Assembly: GCF_020037015.1 (NCBI RefSeq)
Contig: NZ_JAIQDE010000011.1
Location: 62,001 to 126,000, forward strand
Direction: 5' to 3'
DNA from: Corallococcus sp. AS-1-6
GTDB lineage: Bacteria > Myxococcota > Myxococcia > Myxococcales > Myxococcaceae
DNA: 64,000 nt
Below, in pieces: positions 165 through 48,557 of the stretch. Both the position numbers and the translations under genes were made by a program. The notes beneath the pieces are model-generated. The model ran no database searches, was not told where the DNA came from, and was given only the letters and a program-made list of their open reading frames with translations. Position 1 is the first letter of the stretch. Each line of letters begins with the position of its first letter.

Positions 165-992
165 ATGCGAGACGGGAGCGTGAGGGCTCCCCCGCGGACG
201 GCGACCGCGGGCGGGGACGCGATGCAGAAGTACCTGGCGGAGGCCGTCGGCACGTTCGTGCTGGTGCTCGGCGGCGTGGGGGCGGCGGTGCTGGCGGGCG
301 ACCGCATCGGCTTCCTGGGCGTGGCCTTCGCGTTCGGGCTGTCACTGCTGGCCATGGTCTACACGATAGGCCCCATCTCCGGCTGCCACGTGAACCCGGC
401 CGTGACGGTGGGCCTCTTGATGGCGGGCAAGTTCGACAAGCGGCATGTGGCCGGCTACGTCATCGCGCAGTGCGTGGGCGCCATCGTCGCGGCGGGCGTG
501 GTGCTGCTCATCGCGAAGGGCGCGCCGGGCGGCTACTCCGCGGGCGCGGAGGGGCTGGGCAGCAACGGCTACGGGGTGGCGTCGCCGGAGGGGTATGGCG
601 GCGGGGCGGCGTTCCTCACGGAGGTCGCGCTCACCTTCCTGCTGGTGCTGACGGTGCTGGGGGCCACGGACTCGCGCGCGCCGGTGGGCTTCGCGGGCCT
701 GGCCATTGGCCTGGTGCTGACGCTCATCAACCTGGTGGGCATCCCCGTCACCAACACGTCGGTGAACCCGGCGCGCAGCCTGGGCCCGGCGCTCTTCGCC
801 GGAGGGGACGCCCTGCGCCAGTTGTGGCTGTTCATCATCGCGCCGCTGTTGGGGGCGGCCTTCGCGTCCGCGGTGTACCGGCTGGTGCACCGCCCGGCGG
901 TGCAGATTACCGCCGCGCGCGCGGAGCAGGCGACGGACGAGGAGCGCCGCGAGCGCGTGGTGGGCCGGCGCGACGTGGAGCGCCCCGTTTGA
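165..992 (+). CDS. aqpZ: Aquaporin Z-like water channel (MIP family)
   Basis: Inner-membrane water channel of 275 residues. It aligns along its whole length with E. coli AqpZ as I recall it. The two pore motifs are NPA at residues 77-79 (context CHVNPAV) and 201-203 (context NTSVNPARS). The start at 165 is chosen because a perfect AAGGAGG at 151-157 sits seven bases before it; the ATG at 222 (MQKYLAEAVG) gives the minimal family-length form, so the first 19 residues are an extension. In the selectivity filter Phe57, Thr198 and Arg204 are kept, but the position of E. coli His174 is Asn189. A charged tail of about 35 residues follows the last helix. It converges on nrdB across a hairpin. Family assignment is secure; substrate range is inferred. 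Confidence 0.93.
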   Translation: MRDGSVRAPPRTATAGGDAMQKYLAEAVGTFVLVLGGVGAAVLAGDRIGFLGVAFAFGLSLLAMVYTIGPISGCHVNPAVTVGLLMAGKFDKRHVAGYVIAQCVGAIVAAGVVLLIAKGAPGGYSAGAEGLGSNGYGVASPEGYGGGAAFLTEVALTFLLVLTVLGATDSRAPVGFAGLAIGLVLTLINLVGIPVTNTSVNPARSLGPALFAGGDALRQLWLFIIAPLLGAAFASAVYRLVHRPAVQITAARAEQATDEERRERVVGRRDVERPV

Positions 993-44850: not shown

Positions 44851-46275
44851 ATGGACACGAAGAAGCTGACGCTGGCGGCGGTGGTGGCGGGTGTGGCGGT
44901 GGCGGTGGTGCCGTGGCTGTTGCCCACGGGGCCGAGCGCCGGGCTGGACGCGGCCCGGTTCCTGGAGTCCGGCAACCTCGCGTGGGGCGCGCTGGTGGTG
45001 TTCGCCGGCGGCCTGCTCACCGCGATGACGCCGTGCGTGTACCCGCTCATCCCCATCACCGTGTCGGTGTTCGGCGCGAGGAAGGCGGAGGCGCGGGGCC
45101 GCTCGCTGGCGCTGACGACGTCGTACATCGTGGGCATGGGCGTGGTGTTCAGCGCGCTGGGCATCCTGGCGGCGAAGACGGGCCAGGCTTTCGGCGCCAT
45201 GCTGGGCAGCCCCGCGGTGGTGATGGGGCTGGCGGCGTTCCTGCTGCTGCTGGCCTCGTCGATGTTCGGCGCGTTCGAGCTGGCACTGCCGTCGTCCCTG
45301 CAGACGAAGCTGAGCAACGTGGGCGGCGCGGGCATCGCCGGGGCGTTCGTGATGGGCAGCGTGTCCGGGTTCCTGGCGGCGCCGTGCACGGGGCCGGTGC
45401 TCACGGGCCTGTTGGCCTTCGTGGCGAAGTCCGCCAACACGACGCTGGGCGCGACGCTGCTGTTCATCTACGCGCTGGGCATCGGCGTGCCGTTCTTCCT
45501 CATCGGCGTCTTCACCGTGCGCCTGCCGCGCGGTGGCGTGTGGATGGAGTGGGTGAAGAGCGTGCTGGGCATCATGCTGGTGGCGCTCGCGTTCTCGTAC
45601 CTGAAGGACGCCTTCCCCTGGGCGCGCGACCACGTGAAGGCGCTGGGCGCCGAGGTGGGCCAGGTGCCCGGCGCGGTGATGGCCGCGGCGCTGGTGATGG
45701 TGGGCGTCGGGGTGGGCGCGGTGCACCGCTCGTTCAAGGAGGGCGCGCGCGACTTCGGCTTCAAGGCGCTGGGCGTGGCGCTGGTGGTGGGCGCGCTGGT
45801 GGTGCGCGGCGGCGCGCTGGACGCGCGGCCCGTGGGTGAGCTGTGGGTGCGCATGGGGCTCCAGGAGCGCCCGGTGGCGCCGTCCTGGCAGTGGCACCAC
45901 GTGATGCCGGAGAAGCAGGCGACGTTCGACGCCGGCCAGTTCGAGCGGGTGCTCGCGGCGGCGAAGAAGGAGGGCCGCCCGGTGCTCATCGACTTCTTCG
46001 CGGACTGGTGCGCGGCCTGCAAGGAGCTGGACCGGCTGACGTACCCGTCCACGGAGGTCATCTCCCAGGCGCAGGACAGCCGCTTCCTCACCATCAAGAT
46101 CGACGCGACGAACAGCGAGGACCGCCTGGATGCGCTGATGGAGAAGCTGGGCGTGGAGGGCCTGCCCACGGTGGCCTTCGTGAACCCGGACGGCACCGTG
46201 CTGACGAAGCCGCGCGTGACGGGCTTCCTGGAGCCCGTGCCCTTCGCGGCGGAGATGCAGAAGGTCGTCCAGTAG
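44851..46275 (+). CDS. dsbD: Thiol:disulfide interchange protein DsbD, lacking the alpha domain
   Basis: 474 residues. N-terminal hydrophobic segment, then the membrane beta domain with its two redox cysteines in AMTPCVYPLIPI and FLAAPCTGPVLTG. A C-terminal thioredoxin-like gamma domain carries DFFADWCAACKELD. The N-terminal periplasmic alpha domain of E. coli DsbD is absent, so another protein must take the electrons in the periplasm. It moves reducing power from cytoplasmic thioredoxin outward, for example for cytochrome c maturation. Confidence 0.92.
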   Translation: MDTKKLTLAAVVAGVAVAVVPWLLPTGPSAGLDAARFLESGNLAWGALVVFAGGLLTAMTPCVYPLIPITVSVFGARKAEARGRSLALTTSYIVGMGVVFSALGILAAKTGQAFGAMLGSPAVVMGLAAFLLLLASSMFGAFELALPSSLQTKLSNVGGAGIAGAFVMGSVSGFLAAPCTGPVLTGLLAFVAKSANTTLGATLLFIYALGIGVPFFLIGVFTVRLPRGGVWMEWVKSVLGIMLVALAFSYLKDAFPWARDHVKALGAEVGQVPGAVMAAALVMVGVGVGAVHRSFKEGARDFGFKALGVALVVGALVVRGGALDARPVGELWVRMGLQERPVAPSWQWHHVMPEKQATFDAGQFERVLAAAKKEGRPVLIDFFADWCAACKELDRLTYPSTEVISQAQDSRFLTIKIDATNSEDRLDALMEKLGVEGLPTVAFVNPDGTVLTKPRVTGFLEPVPFAAEMQKVVQ

Positions 46276-46294
46276 GCTGTGGTAGGAGGCTCGA

Positions 46295-47407
46295 ATGCTT
46301 GAGCGGCTCTACGTCGACAATTACCGGTGCTTCGTCAACTTCGAGTGGAAGCCCGACCGGCTGGCGCTGCTGCTGGGAGAGAACGGCTCGGGCAAGACGT
46401 CGGTCCTCGACGTGTTGTGGAGTGTGCGAAGTCTGGTTGTACGAGACCGCGAGGTCCGCGGATGCTTCCCACACGAGTCCCGGACCCGGTGGGAATCCAG
46501 GCTGAACCAGCGCGTGGAACTGGATGTGCGACTGGGCCAGGATCTCTACAAGTACCGTTTGCAGGTAGACCACGATGAAGAGGAACCATCCAATACCCGG
46601 GTCGGGTTCGAGTCTCTTCATTGCAACGAGACGTCACTGCTGGAGTTCGTCAACGGGCAGCTCACGATACGTGGAAGTAAGGGGGCGCCGGACGTCACGT
46701 TCAGCGCCCGCACAGGCAGTTCGGGACTGAGTGCGCTCGGGACAGGGGCCAAGAAGCTCGCGGTATTCAAGCGTTGGCTTGACGAGGACGTTTGGTACTT
46801 CCGTCCGGATCCACGCCGGATGTCGGGCCGCACGGACGCGCAACGCGACATGCTCGAGGAGAGCCTTCACAATCTCGCGTCGTGGTACCCGCCGCTCATC
46901 ACGCATGAATTGATGGATGCCATCCGTATCCAGGATGCGCTTCGCGAGGTCATCCCGGGATTTGAAGCACTGGCGGTGGACAAGACACGGCCCCAGCTCC
47001 AGGTCCGGTTCTCCGCAGGCAAGGGAGCCCCTTATTCGGTGGACTTTGTTGAGCTGTCAGACGGCCAGCGCGCGCTCATCGCGCTCTACATCTTGCGCCA
47101 CACCGTGATCAAACCGGGGCGGCTGATCATCTTCGATGAGCCCGACAACTACGTCGCTCTGCGGGAGATTCAGCCTTGGCTGCTCGACGTCGTCGATGCT
47201 GCTTCGGAGGAAGACGGACCCCAGGTCTTCTTCGTGAGCCATCATCCCGAGTTCCTCAATCAGCTGGCTCCCTCGAATGGAACAAGGTTCTTCCGCCAGG
47301 CCGGAGGGCCTTCGAGAATCGAGCCCTTCCAAGGGCTTCCTGGGCTGAATTCAGCGGAAGTCGTCGCACGCGGCTGGGAGGACACCACGGAGCCGCCTCA
47401 TGAGTAG
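46295..47407 (+). CDS. ABC-type AAA ATPase of a two-gene ATPase-TOPRIM module
   Basis: 370 residues. Walker A GENGSGKTS at residues 29-37, a signature-like LSDGQRALIALYIL, Walker B RLIIFDEPDNYV and a switch His in VFFVSHHPEF, all intact; the middle lacks a long coiled coil, so it is of the AAA_15/AAA_21 (OLD/RecF-like) type rather than SMC. Codon usage is clearly less GC-rich than flanking genes (about 50-55% G+C in sampled lines against about 70%), suggesting transfer. It overlaps the next gene by eight bases and follows dsbD by 19. The layout resembles anti-phage ATPase plus TOPRIM systems (PARIS, AbiL, OLD/Gabija). Function inferred. Confidence 0.85.
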   Translation: MLERLYVDNYRCFVNFEWKPDRLALLLGENGSGKTSVLDVLWSVRSLVVRDREVRGCFPHESRTRWESRLNQRVELDVRLGQDLYKYRLQVDHDEEEPSNTRVGFESLHCNETSLLEFVNGQLTIRGSKGAPDVTFSARTGSSGLSALGTGAKKLAVFKRWLDEDVWYFRPDPRRMSGRTDAQRDMLEESLHNLASWYPPLITHELMDAIRIQDALREVIPGFEALAVDKTRPQLQVRFSAGKGAPYSVDFVELSDGQRALIALYILRHTVIKPGRLIIFDEPDNYVALREIQPWLLDVVDAASEEDGPQVFFVSHHPEFLNQLAPSNGTRFFRQAGGPSRIEPFQGLPGLNSAEVVARGWEDTTEPPHE

Positions 47408-47948
47408 TCGTGGAGTCAAGTACGTCATCCTCTGTGAGGATAAACAGGCACGAACCTTCATTGAACGAGCGCTTAAATCTCGGGGTGTGGGACGTCGGGA
47501 TATTCGCACGGAGCCATTGCCCTCCTCTGTAGGAGGCGCAGGGGAGCAGTATGTGCGCCAGCGTGCGCCCGAGCAGATCAAGGCGCATCGGACTGCTCAC
47601 GTGAACGCGGCGTTGATCATCCATGTCGATGCGGATCCCGCCAACTCCGTCCATGACCGCCGCCAGCAACTCGACGCGGCGCTCAAGGAGCAGGGGCAAT
47701 CGCCTGTGACGAATCCGGAGCGAATCGCCCGCCTCGTCCCCAAGCGGAACATCGAGACGTGGATCCGCTTCTATCTGGACGGTTCGCCGGTCGACGAAGT
47801 CCAGGCGTACCCGAAGTACACTGGGAACGAGAGTGCTTGCTGGCCCGCTGCGGATTCCTTCGCGCGAGATGCCGCAGGCAACGTCCAGCCCCCGCAGGCA
47901 CCAGGGTCCCTCCTGCTGGGGCTCGATGAGTTCCGGTGCGTTCTGTAG
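47400..47948 (+). CDS. TOPRIM-like partner of the preceding ATPase
   Basis: 182 residues; its ATG lies within the last codons of the ATPase gene. A possible TOPRIM core: strand with acidic residue VKYVILCEDKQARTF, then DxD in ALIIHVDADPANS, then KRNIETWIRFYL with a conserved-looking Glu-Thr-Trp. In families such as DUF4276, DUF4435 and RloB similar features form a metal-dependent nuclease or nucleotide-processing site. Low G+C like its partner (47401-47460 is 48%). The C-terminus is short and lacks an obvious extra domain. It is followed 18 bases later by the convergent tapT gene. Exact family uncertain. Confidence 0.75.
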   Translation: MSSRGVKYVILCEDKQARTFIERALKSRGVGRRDIRTEPLPSSVGGAGEQYVRQRAPEQIKAHRTAHVNAALIIHVDADPANSVHDRRQQLDAALKEQGQSPVTNPERIARLVPKRNIETWIRFYLDGSPVDEVQAYPKYTGNESACWPAADSFARDAAGNVQPPQAPGSLLLGLDEFRCVL

Positions 47949-47966
47949 CGCCCCGGCCACCGCCCG

Positions 47967-48557
47967 CTAGAGGTAGTTCTCCCAGCCCAGCCGCCCGCGG
48001 CTCGCGAGCACGCGCTCGATCATCAGCTCGTGCAGCGTGAGCAGCGGCTTCGCGATGTCCTCGCCCTCCAGCCGCGCGAGCGCGCCGGCCATGGCCTCCA
48101 GCGTGGACATCCCGTCCGGGTGCGGCGGCTTGCGCAGCCGCCGCGTGTCCGGGGCGGGCGGCGGCAGCCTCATGCCGGGCAGGCGCCGCAGGGCGGGGAC
48201 GCGCTGCACCATGCGCCGCGCCTGCGCCCAGCTCCCGTCGATGACCACGAGCCGCTTCGGCGGAGGCCCCTCCGCCTCCGGTGCGTCCGGGAAGAGCAGC
48301 CACGTGTCCGGCGCGTCCAGCACCGACGCGTCGAAGGGCGCTCCGGGCGCGCCGTACGACACGATGTGGCAGCGGGGCAGGGCCAGCGCCGCGATGCGCG
48401 CCGTGTTGGTGCTCTTCTGCGACTCCTTGTTATGCCGGATGATCAGCAGCTCCGTGCGCGTGGGGATGACGGGCACGTTGGCGCACAGGCACAAGGCCGT
48501 GGGCAGGTAGCAGCGCGCACAGCGACCCGACAGGTCCTCCGGGGTGCTCGACCTCAT
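47967..48557 (-). CDS. tapT: tRNA-uridine aminocarboxypropyltransferase (DTW domain)
   Basis: Transfers a 3-amino-3-carboxypropyl group from SAM to tRNA uridine (acp3U47 in E. coli). 196 residues. Zinc-type cysteines in GRCARCYLPTALCLC near the N-terminus, and the DTW-family active-site segment LVVIDGSWAQARRM. The start overlaps the stop of the upstream minus-strand gene by four bases. Convergent with the ATPase-TOPRIM pair. Confidence 0.9.
   Translation of the reverse strand: MRSSTPEDLSGRCARCYLPTALCLCANVPVIPTRTELLIIRHNKESQKSTNTARIAALALPRCHIVSYGAPGAPFDASVLDAPDTWLLFPDAPEAEGPPPKRLVVIDGSWAQARRMVQRVPALRRLPGMRLPPPAPDTRRLRKPPHPDGMSTLEAMAGALARLEGEDIAKPLLTLHELMIERVLASRGRLGWENYL

Follow-up and report, generated by a model that had tools for sequence, protein, structure and literature searches.

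Pairs of an ABC ATPase and a TOPRIM protein are a recurring immune architecture, for which triggers and substrates are known for few members. The pairing recurs in PARIS, AbiL, MADS, Gabija, and HEC-04 (PMC10568477; PMC12409363; PMC12111858). In PARIS, AriA restrains the TOPRIM tRNase AriB until a phage trigger appears, and released AriB blocks translation (PMC12409363). In HEC-04, which protects against T4 and T5, the ABC ATPase is fused to the TOPRIM domain (PMC12111858). The metals of the OLD nuclease of B. pseudomallei (BpOLD) are held by E400, D455, and D457 and by E404, T506, and E508, the last of which is in the helical domain (PMC6755086).

Here we describe two adjacent genes from the predatory soil bacterium Corallococcus sp. 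AS-1-6, referred to as A and B. The pair is best read as a solitary, defense-like subfamily of the ABC ATPase-TOPRIM architecture that includes an uncatalogued TOPRIM subfamily.

A low-GC gene pair between dsbD and a DTW-domain gene

Both ORFs of the pair, as read in the window (the whole 64 kb stretch of DNA that was analyzed), are intact, lie on the + strand, and start with ATG. The features of the locus are as follows.

44851-46275: DsbD-like thiol:disulfide gene (dsbD), upstream of A
46276..46294, + strand: gap of 19 bp from the dsbD stop to the A start, holding TGTGGTAGGAGG, which is a ribosome-binding site and possibly also a -10-like element
46276..47966, no strand: approximate insert between dsbD and the DTW-domain gene, from empty sites with a short gap in at least nine of 16 Corallococcus genomes
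46295..47407, + strand: A, ABC-type ATPase (AAA_21, Rad50/SMC/PtuA-head-like), 370 aa, from AAA_21 (E 1.4e-16), invariant motifs, AF2 model, and fold search
46490..46784, + strand: central part of A, the most divergent between orthologous loci (sliding-window nucleotide identity) and a candidate sensing region
47400..47407, + strand: start/stop overlap of A and B, 8 bases, ATGAGTAG, from the sequence
47400..47948, + strand: B, TOPRIM-like small protein, 182 aa, from the AF2 fold, the OLD TOPRIM domain 6nk8, and residue conservation
47967-48557: DTW-domain gene, downstream of B and convergent to the pair

An earlier note on this DNA had described an intact ATPase and a small protein that overlap by eight bases and are poorer in GC than all neighbors. 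These observations hold: both frames are open, the overlap is ATGAGTAG, and GC is 0.613 in A and 0.623 in B (GC3 of 0.749 and 0.703), as against 0.68-0.74 (GC3 0.85-0.99) in the five nearest genes. The GC minimum of the entire window (0.63) falls at 46-48 kb. The overlap likely couples translation of the two genes. Upstream of A, the motif TGTGSTAGG(R)AGG, which has one match in the window, is also found in the three other Corallococcus-type loci. The element TGTGGTAGG occurs at 46278-46286, before A, and TGTGSTAGG is kept in all four Corallococcus-type loci; it may combine a -10-like element with the ribosome-binding site.

A and B form one module

Of the 195 genomes of the phylum that were searched, 20 have B (one of them only at 7.6e-5) and 19 have A (E<1e-30). 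All 19 genomes with A also carry B, in the same gene order; this count includes G165, in which A and B are at two contig ends and the contig with A holds the first residues of B. In 17 of the 18 readable loci, B has a start codon that precedes the end of A by 1-11 bases; in the 18th (G077), the options for the B start are -28 or +2. With 19 of 19 genomes paired and 17 of 18 loci overlapping, adjacency is obligate. The sequence identities of A and B are also correlated (Mantel r 0.92, 153 pairs, 0 of 5000 permutations), to which shared host descent contributes. Conserved overlap, co-divergence, and co-occurrence of the two genes amount to more than chance.

The family is concentrated in Myxococcota. 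A pair is also carried by a Chloroflexi MAG (L016), the host of which is not certain because the contig was assigned by binning.

The ATPase

The first reading of A as an ABC-type ATPase is confirmed by a match to AAA_21 (E 1.4e-16) and by the motifs of such an ATPase, all of which are present: Walker A GENGSGKT (residues 28-35), signature LSDGQR (254-259), Walker B FDEPD (280-284), and the switch histidine (His316). Alignments of relatives show little or no variation in Walker A, LSxGQR, Walker B, and the switch His. The AF2 model (pLDDT 88.8) shows an ABC head without arms, of the type seen in Rad50, SMC, and PtuA; heads of these proteins were returned by fold searches with Foldseek (E as low as 1e-13) and VIA (Z about 19-21).

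The PADLOC models HEC-01A, AriA, AbiLi, and PtuA match 11-12 of 12 members of the A family, with a best score of 9.3e-30 for HEC-01A. The A protein of the window is matched by HEC-01A at 5.5e-19, AriA at 2.5e-18, AbiLi at 1.9e-17, and mad3 at 1.5e-19, and also by PtuA. It should be noted that PADLOC ATPase models are not very specific, because the mad3 model scores ordinary ABC transporter ATPases beside other loci (1.8e-29 and 2.2e-26) above A. An ABC transporter ATPase is also matched by AriA models, albeit at 3.6e-11. MADS membership was considered and rejected, given the nonspecific mad3 match and the lack of any other adjacent MADS gene.

Nucleotide identity of G005 and G007 to G000 drops to 0.52-0.64 in the center of A (46490-46784), whereas the flanks are mostly at 0.82-0.98. 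Judged from this divergence, the center may be a region that senses a trigger.

The small protein has a TOPRIM-like fold

The earlier note had remarked that the small protein is no clear match to the PARIS, AbiL, or split OLD-type systems, and this is borne out. B has no Pfam match (E<1), no PHROGs family, and no significant NCBIfam match, and a PDB sequence search with the B profile returned chance matches only. Assignment to DUF4276, RloB, or DUF4435 was rejected, as the B of the window is without a Pfam match at E<1. Weak matches to DUF3226 were found in three of 12 B relatives (best 7.6e-4). Matches to PADLOC are also weak, both for the B of the window (HEC-01B at 0.015 over 55 residues, PDC-M31B at 0.026, mad4 at 0.027) and for some of its relatives (HEC-01B at 0.0045, PDC-M38B at 2.1e-5, mad4 at 0.027). 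PDC-M38B matches four of the 12 relatives, the best of these at 2.1e-5, and does not match the B of the window.

These matches bear on whether the pair belongs, if divergently, to a candidate that has already been catalogued, that is, HEC-01 or PDC-M38 of PADLOC, or MAD3-MAD4 outside of a MADS operon. HEC-01A matches 11-12 of 12 A members, as strongly as 9.3e-30, and the HEC-01B, PDC-M38B, and mad4 models do reach some B members, if weakly. However, the best that the B of the window attains is an E of 0.015 over 55 residues, the mad3 model prefers ABC transporters, and no other MADS gene is adjacent. We consider membership doubtful, yet still a serious contender. It overlaps with the explanation that we favor, because the difference is one of filing and not of mechanism.

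The AF2 model of B (pLDDT 89.9, pTM 0.88) has as its top PDB fold, in both programs, the C-terminal TOPRIM region of BpOLD (6nk8), which ranks first in Foldseek (E 6.3e-3, probability 0.96) and first in VIA (Z 7.2 over 150 residues). Two entries of the OLD nuclease of X. campestris (XccOLD) are also in the list, with Z of 6.2-6.4, and among viral models an RloB-like protein ranks first (E 0.035). Because the fold scores are modest and lumazine synthases are close behind (Z 6.8), conserved residues also carry weight in the fold call. Across 18 relatives, conservation is 94% or higher at E13, D77, D79, P114, E119, T120, and W121; E13, D77, and D79 are invariant and the ETW at 119-121 is invariant or nearly so.

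The fold alignment places B residues 5..182 on BpOLD 392..590. If there is no gap in this alignment, E13 would correspond to the catalytic E400 of BpOLD, and D77/D79 and E119 are plausibly the natural equivalents of D455/D457 and E508. By the same alignment-based assignment, E404, the second metal-site acid of OLD, is without a counterpart, with B position 17 an alanine that is variable in the family. The model supports a fit of the invariant residues of B to a TOPRIM metal site, at which catalysis is putative. Given an OLD TOPRIM domain as the top fold, together with invariant E13, DxD, and ETW residues, the TOPRIM call for B is supported. The Glu...DxD features that had been read from the letters of the small protein correspond to E13, D77, and D79, set in a TOPRIM-like fold, with the fold match itself modest.

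The same chromosomal site, occupied and empty

The pair occurs in four of 16 Corallococcus genomes: G000, G008 (C. interemptor), G005 (C. sicarius), and G007. The DTW gene is present in all 16. In G000, G008, and G005, the pair sits between dsbD and the DTW gene, and in G007 it follows dsbD directly and is itself followed by an AMP-binding gene. At least nine of the 16 genomes (G001, G002, G003, G004, G006, G010, G011, G013, and G015) have the empty site, with dsbD adjoining the DTW gene across a short gap. Because the pair lies directly behind dsbD in all four carriers, its position in the genus is fixed when it is present. The homologs are thus not found only as vertically inherited housekeeping neighbors, a possibility that the earlier note had raised, given that the site is empty in close relatives. 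The occupied and empty versions of one site in close relatives also constitute a natural on/off experiment.

In G014, dsbD and the DTW gene are separated by an ~34 kb cluster of very large ORFs, and similar large ORFs are found beside the DTW gene in G007, G009, and G012. The large ORFs at this junction (L112-L117) encode up to 3791 aa and are NRPS-like; an AMP-binding gene is part of the G007 locus. The dsbD-DTW junction may be a favored insertion site, because it holds the pair in some genomes and the large-ORF cluster in others.

The four carriers are spread over different parts of a tree built from the DTW region. G005 is placed next to G002, which has the empty site (support 0.97), and support for the other tips is weak. 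The distribution could reflect either several gains by homologous recombination or repeated losses, which are not separable because the tree was built from about 1.3 kb of sequence and has several weak nodes. No integrase or transposase was recognized beside the pair, and no target-site duplication was obvious by eye at the clean junctions; on these grounds, a mobile-element origin was rejected.

The pair is under purifying selection, judged from a dN/dS of 0.13-0.25. Its synonymous divergence exceeds that of its neighbors (0.34-0.47 vs. 0.09-0.26 for G008; 0.64-1.20 vs. 0.17-0.40 for G005), which may partly be owing to relaxed GC3 bias. Elsewhere, B is frameshifted in G053 (L033/L111), in what is either a decayed copy or a sequencing error, and a second pair in G044 (L109) has a truncated A and an N-terminally truncated B. 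Purifying selection combined with patchy presence indicates that the pair is accessory, not housekeeping.

This bears on the idea that A and B serve host genome maintenance, with an SMC/Rad50/RecF-like ATPase loading a TOPRIM nuclease for repair, in a manner like RecF/RecR or SbcCD. Rad50/SMC heads are the nearest folds to A, which also matches the RecF model (6.4e-8), and the pair sits among housekeeping genes outside defense islands and is kept by purifying selection. However, a gene pair found in 19-20 of 195 genomes of the phylum and four of 16 of the genus, gained or lost at one site and with decayed copies, is patchier than core repair genes, and the defense ATPase PtuA ranks with Rad50 in the A fold search. 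We regard a repair role as quite improbable.

Genomic context

The immediate neighbors of homologous pairs are unrelated or housekeeping genes: rpoN (sigma-54), enoyl-CoA hydratase, APH, abhydrolase, histidine kinase, and acyltransferase. A PADLOC scan of 88 neighbors (1e-12; 25 most-matched families) gave no defense-island signal around the pairs, so the homologs do not sit in defense islands, which the earlier note had proposed to check. The apparent defense matches are an SNF2 helicase adjacent to two loci that are syntenic and belong to one genus, one SWIM_XIII-like protein, CARF/RtcR-type matches resembling ordinary sigma-54 activators, and ABC ATPases of a generic kind, and island association was rejected. 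The SWIM_XIII match (4.2e-159) is to a neighbor of the pair in G051 (L096:7342-9543), with a 2157-aa ORF beside it and a Tox-REase-5 protein on the other side. The pair is thus located outside defense islands, in regions that guilt-by-association passes over. Such a location is reported to be common among PADLOC candidates (PMC12988326), and class 1 OLD genes, too, stand alone (PMC10568477).

Among phage, plasmid, and viral-contig collections, no copies of B were found, and remote homologs of A were found on two cyanobacterial plasmids. On one of these, plasmid pA of Kovacikia minuta (L144:5950-7595), a 164-aa ORF overlaps the stop of the A homolog by 4 bases. It has E and DxD-like residues and a remote likeness to B (hhalign E 0.0016, probability 16%). 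This arrangement suggests that the ATPase family may pair with different small TOPRIM-like proteins and that effector exchange is possible.

A chromosomal toxin-antitoxin-like or anti-plasmid module, in which a toxic nuclease B is restrained by A and selected for self-maintenance or against plasmids, would also account for the start/stop overlap, the solitary location, and the patchiness. The AAA_21 description names the type IV TA toxin AbiEii, and in PARIS the tRNase AriB blocks translation once AriA releases it (PMC12409363). Yet B was found on no plasmid, ATPase sensors are not usual antitoxins, and the pairing of an ABC ATPase with a TOPRIM protein has so far mostly been described in phage defense. 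We give such a module little credence.

Interpretation

We favor the reading that A and B are a two-gene, translationally coupled ABC-ATPase plus TOPRIM system that works against phage like a PARIS/AbiL-type split OLD, and would put its probability at about 0.6. Nuclease activity, a sensor-effector logic, and phage as the target are parts of this reading that we infer. A would bind ATP, oligomerize, and keep B in an inactive state. B would be released or activated when an infection cue acts on the variable center of A and, as a metal-dependent TOPRIM nuclease, could then cleave nucleic acid, either tRNA (as AriB does) or DNA (as OLD does). This would stop the phage, probably at the cost of the infected cell. 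Counting against this reading are the absence of island context and of phage, plasmid, or viral copies of B, the modest fold match, the missing E404 equivalent, and the distribution mainly in Myxococcota.

It is possible, at somewhat less than even odds, that the pair represents a separate and so far undescribed class of two-gene ATPase-TOPRIM immunity that is mainly myxobacterial, lies outside islands, is swapped at a fixed site, and has its own trigger-sensing region and nuclease substrate. The family would add a TOPRIM subfamily that is absent from the searched releases of Pfam, NCBIfam, and PHROGs and is matched weakly by PADLOC.

Comparison with known systems

We did not assign the pair to PARIS, AbiL, MADS, or Gabija, as the defining partners of these systems were tested for and not found. 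MADS is a multi-gene operon with a methylase that is not present here, where the pair is solitary between dsbD and the DTW gene. Compared with Gabija (OLD class 2), the genes are separate and the flanks are dsbD and DTW instead of the GajB helicase. HEC-04 differs in being a fusion, as A and B are separate genes. The PtuA of Septu and retrons shares the ABC ATPase head fold (Z about 19-20), but the partner here is TOPRIM-like, not the HNH protein PtuB, and no retron reverse transcriptase was recognized beside the pair of the window.

Among PADLOC candidates, HEC-01 is like the pair in that HEC-01A matches nearly all A members and HEC-01B a few B members, weakly, and unlike it in that the B of the window reaches at best an E of 0.015 over 55 aa. 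The likeness to PDC-M38 lies in the weak match of PDC-M38B to a few B members, not including that of the window. A literature search for descriptions of HEC-01 and PDC-M38 gave little.

OLD nucleases (class 1 and class 2/GajA) have the same two domains, the best fold match of B is an OLD TOPRIM, and TsOLD is among the matches of A; they differ in that the domains of A and B are on separate genes, there is no GajB, and the E404 equivalent is not conserved. In AbiL (AbiLi-AbiLii/RloB), an ATPase is likewise joined by a small TOPRIM partner, AbiLi matches A, and the top viral fold for B is RloB-like, if weak, whereas the B of the window lacks an AbiLii or RloB sequence match. PARIS (AriA-AriB, "class 4 OLD") shares an adjacent ABC ATPase and separate TOPRIM effector, and AriA models match A, as they do an ABC transporter ATPase, whereas B, at 182 aa, is without an AriB or DUF4435 match at E<1. 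The resemblance to PARIS, AbiL, and split OLD systems that had first been noticed in this DNA lies in the architecture itself, an ATPase and a TOPRIM-like partner encoded by adjacent genes.
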